Source: Dehalococcoidales bacterium (lineage in GTDB: Bacteria > Chloroflexota > Dehalococcoidia > Lucifugimonadales > Lucifugimonadaceae). Taken from it: a DNA stretch of 39,271 nucleotides. A program made the position numbers and the translations under genes. The notes under the pieces are model-generated. The model made no database searches and was not told where the DNA came from. It saw only the letters and a list, made by a program, of their open reading frames with translations. Positions 27,690 through 33,338 of this stretch are shown piece after piece (position 1 is the first letter of the stretch; each line of letters begins with the position of its first letter). The DNA lies in assembly GCA_009937255.1 (NCBI GenBank), contig JAACCT010000004.1, positions 1 to 39,271 on the forward strand, written 5' to 3'.

Positions 27690-27932
27690 ATGGATATATA
27701 TGTTGGGAACTTACCATGGAGTATAGATGATGATGGATTACAAGCTTTGTTTGCTGAACATGGTGACGTTATAAGTGCAAAAGTAATTAAGGATAGAGAA
27801 ACTAACCGTTCAAAGGGATTTGGATTTGTTGAAATGGATGATGATTCAGGAGAAAATGTAATATCTTCTCTTGATGGATCTGAAGTTGATGGCCGAAATA
27901 TTAAGGTCAACAAATCAAAAGGTAAAAAATAA
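27690..27932 (+). CDS. RNA-binding protein with one RRM domain
   Basis: This 80-aa protein is a single RNA recognition motif: RNP2 IYVGNL (3-8), RNP1 KGFGFVEM (near 47-54) and a basic tail KVNKSKGKK. Bacterial RRM proteins of this size act as RNA chaperones, often responding to cold or tethering mRNA. AAGGA precedes ATG. A long hairpin lies 34 bp downstream, possibly a 3' end stabiliser or target. The gene has its own gap on both sides, so it is probably monocistronic. Confidence 0.88.
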   Translation: MDIYVGNLPWSIDDDGLQALFAEHGDVISAKVIKDRETNRSKGFGFVEMDDDSGENVISSLDGSEVDGRNIKVNKSKGKK

Positions 27933-27965
27933 TTCCAGATAATTACTATTACGCTGGCTAATAGA

Positions 27966-28012
27966 TGGTGAGAGATTGATATTATAATTTTATAATTTCT
28001 CAACTCTCACCA
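27966..28012 (+). ncRNA. Long hairpin downstream of the RRM gene
   Basis: TGGTGAGAG plus TTGA (27966-27974, 27976-27979, with one bulged A) pairs with TCAACTCTCACCA (28000-28012), giving 13 bp. The loop holds a further palindrome ATTATAATTTTATAAT (27981-27996), so the element can fold into one long rod. No T run follows, so it is not a standard intrinsic terminator. It may be a processing or stability element, a protein-bound RNA site or a small RNA end. Marked ncRNA only as a best fit. Confidence 0.45.
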
Positions 28013-31870: not shown

Positions 31871-32353
31871 TTATTTCTTTAACTCTCCCAAGTCATAAAG
31901 ATGCTTTAATGCTGTAATTTCTATAGATTTTTCATCATCAAAGATCCAATGGATTTTAGGGAAAATATAGTTATTAAATTTTTCTAAAATAATATTTATT
32001 TTAGATTTATCAAATTTTGTCTCTTCATTATTTGATAAATAATTTCTTATTTCAACAAACTCTTTTTTTGTATATTTGAAAAGTTTTTCAGCGTTATCAA
32101 GTCTTTTCTCTGATTGCGTTGTGATAATCATATCTTCAAGATTTAGATTTAATCTTTCATCTTGAATGTAATTTGTTAAAATTTCAAAATAATTTTCTAA
32201 TTCATCTATACTGTTATTTAATATATTTAAGTTTATTTCAACAGGTTTTTTTTTTAATTCTTTAAGAAAAACTTCAACACTAGAAATTATTTTACTTTTA
32301 AAATTTTTTTCAGACATATATATATTGAAAATAGAATTTATTTTTTTTATCAA
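31871..32353 (-). CDS. Hypothetical alpha-helical protein
   Basis: A 160-aa, mostly helical protein, without signal peptide or membrane helix. Segments such as LNNSIDELENYFEILTNYIQ and NAEKLFKYTKKEFVEIRNYL suggest a helical bundle. It ends ITALKHLYDLGELKK. I recognise no family. A second start, MSEKNFKSKIISSVEVF at 32317, would give 148 residues and is perhaps more likely, as the first 12 residues are low-complexity. The gap upstream holds the long inverted repeats. Confidence 0.55.
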   Translation of the reverse strand: MIKKINSIFNIYMSEKNFKSKIISSVEVFLKELKKKPVEINLNILNNSIDELENYFEILTNYIQDERLNLNLEDMIITTQSEKRLDNAEKLFKYTKKEFVEIRNYLSNNEETKFDKSKINIILEKFNNYIFPKIHWIFDDEKSIEITALKHLYDLGELKK

Positions 32354-32423
32354 CTAATTTAATTATGGAGTATACATAATTAAATTAGAACACTTATTTA
32401 TAAAAATTTACACATTAACAAAC

Positions 32424-32490
32424 AATTTAGGTTAGAGAATCAAGTTTTATTATTTTGGTGGCAAGCCGACTTGATTCTCTAACCTAAATT
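32424..32490. repeat. Long perfect inverted repeat H1 (22-bp arms)
   Basis: The left arm at 32424-32445 and the right arm at 32469-32490 are perfect reverse complements over 22 bp, containing GGTTAGAGAATCAAGT and its complement. The loop is 23 nt and contains GGCAAGCC, which can itself fold. There is no flanking T run on either strand. It lies in a 280-bp gap with no other gene and shares the core TTAGAGAA with H2 about 160 bp away. Possible roles: mRNA 3' end protection, protein-binding site or mobile-repeat remnant. Confidence 0.8.
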
Positions 32491-32606
32491 ATAAATAATC
32501 AAAATATTAATTCAAAATTTAGAGTCAAAATTATGATAAAAATATGTATTATTAATCAGACAAATTTTTAAACTTAATGATTTTACTGACACTGAATAAG
32601 AGAATT

Positions 32607-32654
32607 AAGTTAGAGAACCGATTACTAAGTCCCTCAAAGTCGGTTCTCTAACTT
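32607..32654. repeat. Long perfect inverted repeat H2 (15-bp arms), overlapping the 3' end of the glycosylase gene
   Basis: AAGTTAGAGAACCGA (32607-32621) and TCGGTTCTCTAACTT (32640-32654) are perfect 15-bp arms with an 18-nt spacer. The core TTAGAGAA matches H1, so both appear to belong to one repeat family. The right arm encodes the last residues of the glycosylase (NKLENR), and the stop codon (32634-32636) lies in the loop. No T run follows. Confidence 0.8.
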
Positions 32655-33338
32655 ATTAACCATACTCCAATCTACTTCTTCAATATTTTTGGACCTTAAA
32701 TATTTATTAGTTTTTGAAAAAGGTTTACTACCAAAGAAGCCTCTATAAGATGATAATGGTGAGGGATGGGGAGATTCAATTATTAAATGTTCTTTATGGT
32801 TAATATTTTTTATTTTATTTTGAGCATGTTTTCCCCAGAGTATAAAAACTAAGTTTTTTCTTTTTTTACTTAAAATTTCAATAACTTTACTAGTAAATCT
32901 TTCCCAACCTATTTTACTGTGTGATAAAGGTTTGTTTTTTTCCACAGTTAGAGTTGAATTTAATAAAAAAACTCCTTGTTTTGCCCATTTTTCTAAATTG
33001 CCGTTTTTATAATCTACTTGAATTTCCAAGTCAGTTGATAGTTCTTTATAGATATTTTTTAATGAAGGGGGTAAAGGGACTGTTTTAGGTACTGAAAAAC
33101 TCAATCCATGAGCTTGACCGTTCCCATGATAAGGATCTTGACCTAATATTACAACTTTAATATTTTCAAAATCAGAATAGTTAAAAGCATTGAAAATTAA
33201 TGATGGTTTAGGAAAAATTTCTTTTCCATTTTTATAGTTTTGTTTTAGAAAAGATATTATTTCTTCTATATATTTTTCCCCTAATTCATCCTTAAGGTGA
33301 GATTTCCAGCTTAAAGGAAGTTTTATATCTTTTATCAA
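32634..33338 (-). CDS. ung: Uracil-DNA glycosylase, family 1
   Basis: This 234-aa repair enzyme removes uracil from DNA. Water-activating motif GQDPYH is at 66-71 (D68), uracil-binding block GLSFSVPKTVPLPPSLKNI follows, and the minor-groove loop HPSPLSSYRGFFGSKPFS holds the second catalytic His. The usual fold ends around EVDW; here about ten more residues (SMVNKLENRL) are added, coded by one arm of inverted repeat H2. The tail is therefore probably recruited from the repeat. ATG 33338 is fixed by the conserved N-terminal helix. Confidence 0.92.
   Translation of the reverse strand: MIKDIKLPLSWKSHLKDELGEKYIEEIISFLKQNYKNGKEIFPKPSLIFNAFNYSDFENIKVVILGQDPYHGNGQAHGLSFSVPKTVPLPPSLKNIYKELSTDLEIQVDYKNGNLEKWAKQGVFLLNSTLTVEKNKPLSHSKIGWERFTSKVIEILSKKRKNLVFILWGKHAQNKIKNINHKEHLIIESPHPSPLSSYRGFFGSKPFSKTNKYLRSKNIEEVDWSMVNKLENRL

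Follow-up and report, generated by a model that had tools for sequence, protein, structure and literature searches.

Two related hairpins downstream of ung as a lineage-specific candidate structured RNA pair in a marine Chloroflexota genus

Introduction

The Chlorobi-RRM RNA motif (RF01697), a candidate structured RNA found in Chlorobi and named for RRM genes (Weinberg et al., 2010; PMC2864571), is the nearest described idea to the two hairpins, H1 and H2, that are analyzed here. Both systems are candidate structured RNAs restricted to one bacterial group, and the Chlorobi motif is linked to RRM genes by its name. However, no match in sequence or structure was found between them, and the present system consists of two hairpins, one of which is tied to ung and both of which outlast the loss of an RRM gene.

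In the E. coli ompA type, a 5′-terminal stem-loop stabilizes the mRNA. H1 is likewise a long hairpin, apparently at or near a predicted transcription start, but its loop is partly conserved and its partner hairpin H2 is without counterpart there. Hairpins that titrate CsrA/RsmA carry AnGGA in the loop, and the H2 loop, which reads UUGAGGGACUU, has GGA at its apex; unlike those systems, the genomes with H1 and H2 had no detected CsrA. In a search of 11 genomes including that of the window (incomplete MAGs), CsrA was found in none, while the controls were detected, and Hfq was also found in 0 of 11 genomes, the own genome included. A CsrA sponge based on the GGA of the H2 loop and an Hfq-dependent sRNA were therefore both rejected. 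Moreover, scans against Rfam 15 at gathering and E-value thresholds returned no family that matches H1 or H2, the best scores being chance miRNA-like hairpins far below the cut-off, and a search of the literature on small RNAs of SAR202/TMED70-type Chloroflexota found nothing.

The stretch of DNA analyzed, 39,271 nt at its full length, is called the window. Loci with the H2 pattern were found in the named genomes Chloroflexi bacterium TMED70, Chloroflexi EAC10 and Dehalococcoidia SAT203, and the window therefore belongs to that marine Chloroflexota genus, which comprises streamlined ocean bacteria of the SAR202 type. We consider it probable that the two hairpins are structured RNA elements that form a pair specific to this genus and belong to the minus strand, which is that of ung. 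With covariation in one hairpin and a letter-perfect partner in the other, they are a well-supported, lineage-specific candidate structured RNA pair in an abundant, largely uncultured ocean lineage.

Results and Discussion

Two Perfect Stems With a Common Core

The features of the locus are listed in Table 1. A preliminary description of this DNA had given H1 perfect arms of 22 bp, which agrees with our measurement, and H2 perfect arms of 15 bp, which proved to be perfect as stated and one pair longer. It had also seen a sequence common to the two hairpins, and the core GTTAGAGAA was indeed present in the arms of both. This core occurs five times in the window vs. 0.47 expected, and four of the five copies lie inside the arms of H1 or H2. 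The H1 loop has 23 nt and contains CTTGCCACC, and the apical loop of H2 has 18 nt and contains the conserved GAGGGAC.

H1 and H2 were the longest perfect stems containing G+C in a 434-kb sample from the own genome (an assembly of 1.47 Mb in 108 contigs), and the next-longest perfect stem in this sample had 17 bp with a single G/C. Across 20 dinucleotide shuffles of the whole 434-kb sample the longest arm was 16, and shuffled arms of at least 14 never had more than three G/C, compared to six each in H1 and H2. The folding z-scores relative to shuffles were −8.0 for H1 and −5.4 for H2.

TABLE 1. Coordinates of the hairpins, genes and motifs in the window.
Feature	Position	Strand	Remarks
H1 stem-loop	32424-32490	-	9/9 genus genomes; compensatory changes at 8/11 core pairs
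H1 arms	5′ arm 32469-32490, 3′ arm 32424-32445	-	22 bp, 100% complementary
H2 stem-loop	32606-32655	-	7/9 genus genomes, directly after ung
H2 arms	5′ arm 32640-32655, 3′ arm 32606-32621	-	16 bp, 100% complementary
ung (uracil-DNA glycosylase)	32634-33338	-	derived C-terminal tail, stop within H2
TTGTCTGATTAA (conserved form TTGTCTnATTAA), spacer between H2 and H1	32552-32563	-	7/7 genomes having H2
TTGAAT, −35-like hexamer	32510-32515	-	16 nt upstream of TATAAT
TATAAT, −10-like box	32488-32493	-	invariant in 9/9; 6-10 nt before H1 core stem
TGTTCTAAT motif downstream of H1	32384-32392	-	in relatives, found in the leaders of RRM1 and RRM2
RRM1 site of relatives, gene absent in window	32318-32383	-	comparison with eight relatives
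Partner gene, co-directional; follows RRM1 in relatives	31871-32317	-	ATG start at 32317

A Single Syntenic Locus per Genome

Pattern searches and covariance-model searches covered the own genome and 79 relatives. The genus sample comprised the window and eight other genomes having ung, all from marine Chloroflexota related to TMED70. H1 was present in all nine and H2 in seven (8/8 and 6/8 of the relatives, respectively), in each case in the spacer that follows ung; G002 and G005 (L013, L014) have H1 without H2. For each genome of the genus, the covariance models returned a single strong site, with E-values from 1e-9 to 1e-18, and outside the genus (71 relatives) weak marginal hits only (E 0.02-0.09 for H2 and 0.006-0.06 for H1). 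Eight weaker hits were inspected, and those at other sites are not copies: L046 and L048, from genomes of other genera, proved to be short stems resembling terminators, and L053, inside the genus, falls in a coding sequence. The two hairpins had been described as related, and in keeping with this the model of each weakly finds the other, the H2 model (R2) matching H1 in G004 at E 0.007 and the H1 model (R1) matching H2 in the window.

Since there is one strong site per genome at the same spacer, H1 and H2 are no dispersed repeat. The preliminary description had proposed the opposite, that a repeat seems to have landed at the gene end; such a repeat would be mobile or dispersed, of the REP/MITE kind. 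H1 and H2 resemble REP/MITE palindromes in being inverted repeats of imperfect similarity that stand 178 nt apart in a spacer; unlike these palindromes, they occupy a single locus that is syntenic across species and keep a constant position throughout the genus. A genome-wide search for such palindromes found no further copies in the own genome, no strong match appeared at other sites, and the inspected weaker hits were not copies. The relatives likewise had neither empty sites nor signs of recent insertion: H1 (9/9) and H2 (7/9) stand at the same site, with H2 after the ung stop. The REP/MITE reading is thus already contradicted, and we give it hardly any probability. The hairpins are an old, genus-specific, single-copy and syntenic feature and no recent arrival. 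H2 was also searched for in viral contigs and found in none of them, and a phage origin of the hairpins was dropped.

The end of ung bears on the same question. As had been reported, the stop codon of the window's ung lies in the conserved loop of H2 (TGA, 32634-32636, minus strand). The encoded Ung has ten extra residues, SMVNKLENRL (32637-32666), past the usual terminal W; in six relatives Ung ends at ...INW or two residues past INW, and in the relatives H2 begins 12-23 nt past the ung stop. In the window the usual stop is lost and the frame runs through the 5′ arm of H2 to the TGA in the loop. H2 is older than the Ung extension, which is the reverse of the order proposed before and also argues against a repeat that arrived at the gene end. 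The locus shows that a stop codon can give way to another one that lies within a conserved downstream RNA loop.

Covariation in H1 and Invariance in H2

It had been claimed that the pairing and not the bases is kept in these stems. This held for H1, which showed strong covariation and pairing that is conserved in the relatives, but not for H2, in which the letters of stem and loop are themselves invariant. Across the nine genomes, 99% of the cells in the H1 core stem were paired, and changes on both sides were found at 8/11 core pairs; these are compensatory changes of the kind expected of a structured RNA. The covariation score was reached by 0/500 shuffles, and in a control in which the partner was slid by 1-3 columns, pairing dropped to 36-46%. 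Furthermore, the H1 core has three wobble cells, each of which is G-U if read on the ung strand and C-A if read on the other, and this polarity suggests that the RNA is that of the ung strand.

In H2, all seven genomes had the same stem AGAGAACCG, the same loop sequence GAGGGAC and the same returning arm CGGTTCTC, except for one sequencing N and the end pairs. The identity of Ung to the Ung of the window is just 58-65% within the genus, and the invariance of H2 therefore indicates a strong sequence constraint. Being invariant, H2 is uninformative for covariation and gives no evidence of this kind for RNA pairing; a position at the end of the loop is a non-pairing A-C in two genomes, which becomes a wobble if read on the opposite strand. 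Because both stem and loop sequence are conserved, H2 is probably bound by a protein or an RNA. A search for antisense targets of the loop (AGTCCCTCAA) found no more sites than the reversed control, and two inspected sites (L114, L115), apparently in the same coding sequence, were unconvincing as targets.

Symmetric DNA-binding sites can covary too. The palindromes might accordingly act as DNA, as operators of a dimeric regulator with the half-sites GAGAAC/GTTCTC, and H1 would then be a repressor operator at the start site of a promoter. H1 does directly follow the invariant TATAAT, where operators are usually found, the half-site-like arms are common to both hairpins, and the bases of H2 are invariant. 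However, the arms are far apart, reach 22 bp and change their letters in step from species to species, the loop length is variable, the H2 loop is as conserved as the arms, and the wobble pairs of H1 have one polarity. We therefore regard an operator function as unlikely.

The terminator reading, in which transcription of ung ends intrinsically at H2 and its U-rich tail and H1 serves as another terminator or as an insulator, fits the location of H2. Like an intrinsic terminator, H2 is a stem-loop right behind a stop codon, at the short distance from ung given above for the relatives, and a T-rich stretch (AATTTTCTTT-like) lies downstream of it; the flanking genes are co-directional. On the other hand, this stretch begins several bases past the stem, so that H2 is without the immediate U run, and nowhere in the pair is a GC-containing stem followed directly by such a run. 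The scan found no canonical terminator at H1 or H2, which bears out the earlier statement that they are not ordinary terminators. An invariant loop and stem sequence would be needless for termination, a related hairpin stands at the next start, and H1 follows a promoter-like box, with T runs only ~27 nt after it. These observations make the terminator reading rather improbable.

A Possible Leader and 3′UTR Hairpin

Among the minus-strand sequences of the spacer, TTGAAT and TATAAT together came closest to a sigma-70-like promoter, a consensus match only, at 10/12 positions; a classical −35 ahead of TATAAT is not conserved in the genus alignment. The invariant TATAAT just before H1 would be the place of an RNA 5′ end, and H1 is therefore read as a 5′-terminal leader hairpin. 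In the window, the extended 22-bp arm of H1 overlaps the 3′ half of TATAAT, so that a transcript starting 7 nt after the box would not contain the full arm.

Taking H1 and H2 as paired RNA elements, we propose that H2 would be a stem-loop in the ung 3′UTR that marks or protects the 3′ end of ung, and that H1 would be a leader hairpin at or near the 5′ end of a transcript begun at TATAAT. This transcript would normally run into an RRM gene and its partner gene, and in the window into the partner alone. H1 may act through mRNA stability or by binding a factor. Since AGAGAA(C)YG occurs in both stems, a single factor could recognize the two hairpins. In a more far-reaching and, in our estimate, improbable version, the two hairpins would form a regulatory RNA system found only in this one streamlined marine Chloroflexota genus, in which neither Hfq nor CsrA is detectable. 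The factor, which might be an RRM protein, would recognize the common stem on two messages, at the 3′ end of that of ung and at the 5′ end of the following one, and DNA repair would thereby be coupled with an RNA-binding-protein operon.

Relation to the RRM Genes

In all eight relatives, the next gene on the ung strand encodes RRM1, a small RRM RNA-binding protein of ~80 residues (Pfam RRM_1), and in most of them RRM1 is followed by the co-directional partner gene. The window has lost RRM1 and retained H1, H2 and the TGTTCTAAT motif; RRM2, a paralogue of RRM1, is kept at 27690-27932. The persistence of both hairpins despite this loss is further support for a pair of structured RNAs, to which the lack of H2 in two species is a counterpoint.

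H1 could also be a cis-regulatory leader through which RRM proteins regulate their own genes, similar to Chlorobi-RRM. This would be a special case of the RNA pair and would not exclude it, and we hold it to be a tentative possibility. H1 lies directly upstream of an RRM gene in 8/9 genomes, and for Chlorobi there is a listed candidate structured RNA that takes its name from RRM genes (PMC2864571, RF01697). H1 is not always accompanied by an RRM gene, however, as the window keeps it without RRM1; the inspected RRM2 genes have no H1 upstream, several of them having a separate TGTTCTAAT, and the Rfam scans gave no match to RF01697. TGTTCTAAT precedes RRM2 in G002, G005, G006 and G008, where H1 is absent, and is rare elsewhere in the genome, being found mainly at RRM leaders. 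The motif therefore looks RRM-specific, and H1 does not appear to be simply an RRM leader. A role of TGTTCTAAT as a general promoter was rejected on account of the same rarity. An alternative pairing of TGTTCTAAT with an H1 arm was discarded, since it is not preserved in L009.

Several further observations were made around these genes. AAAAAATGTTCTAATAnTTAAG closely precedes both RRM paralogues in several species (window 32384-32392, minus strand; L130, L131, L133, L134) and may be a shared promoter or an autoregulatory site. Where RRM1 was lost, the window has a 14-bp perfect AT-rich inverted repeat (32354-32388), which may be either a scar or a newly formed leader hairpin. Downstream of RRM2, a third hairpin is found at 27964-28010 on the plus strand (TGGTGAGAG...CTCTCACCA, then ACTAACTCGACTTATT); its counterpart in G001 (L128) has identical arms, a near-identical flank and a loop that is much shorter, and in G006 another hairpin occupies the corresponding position. 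In addition, the adjacent palindromes TTAGAACACTTGTTCTAA and GAACATATGTTC at ~6103-6150 of L035 (G000:C67), before an ORF start, resemble Bacillus-type LexA (SOS) boxes.
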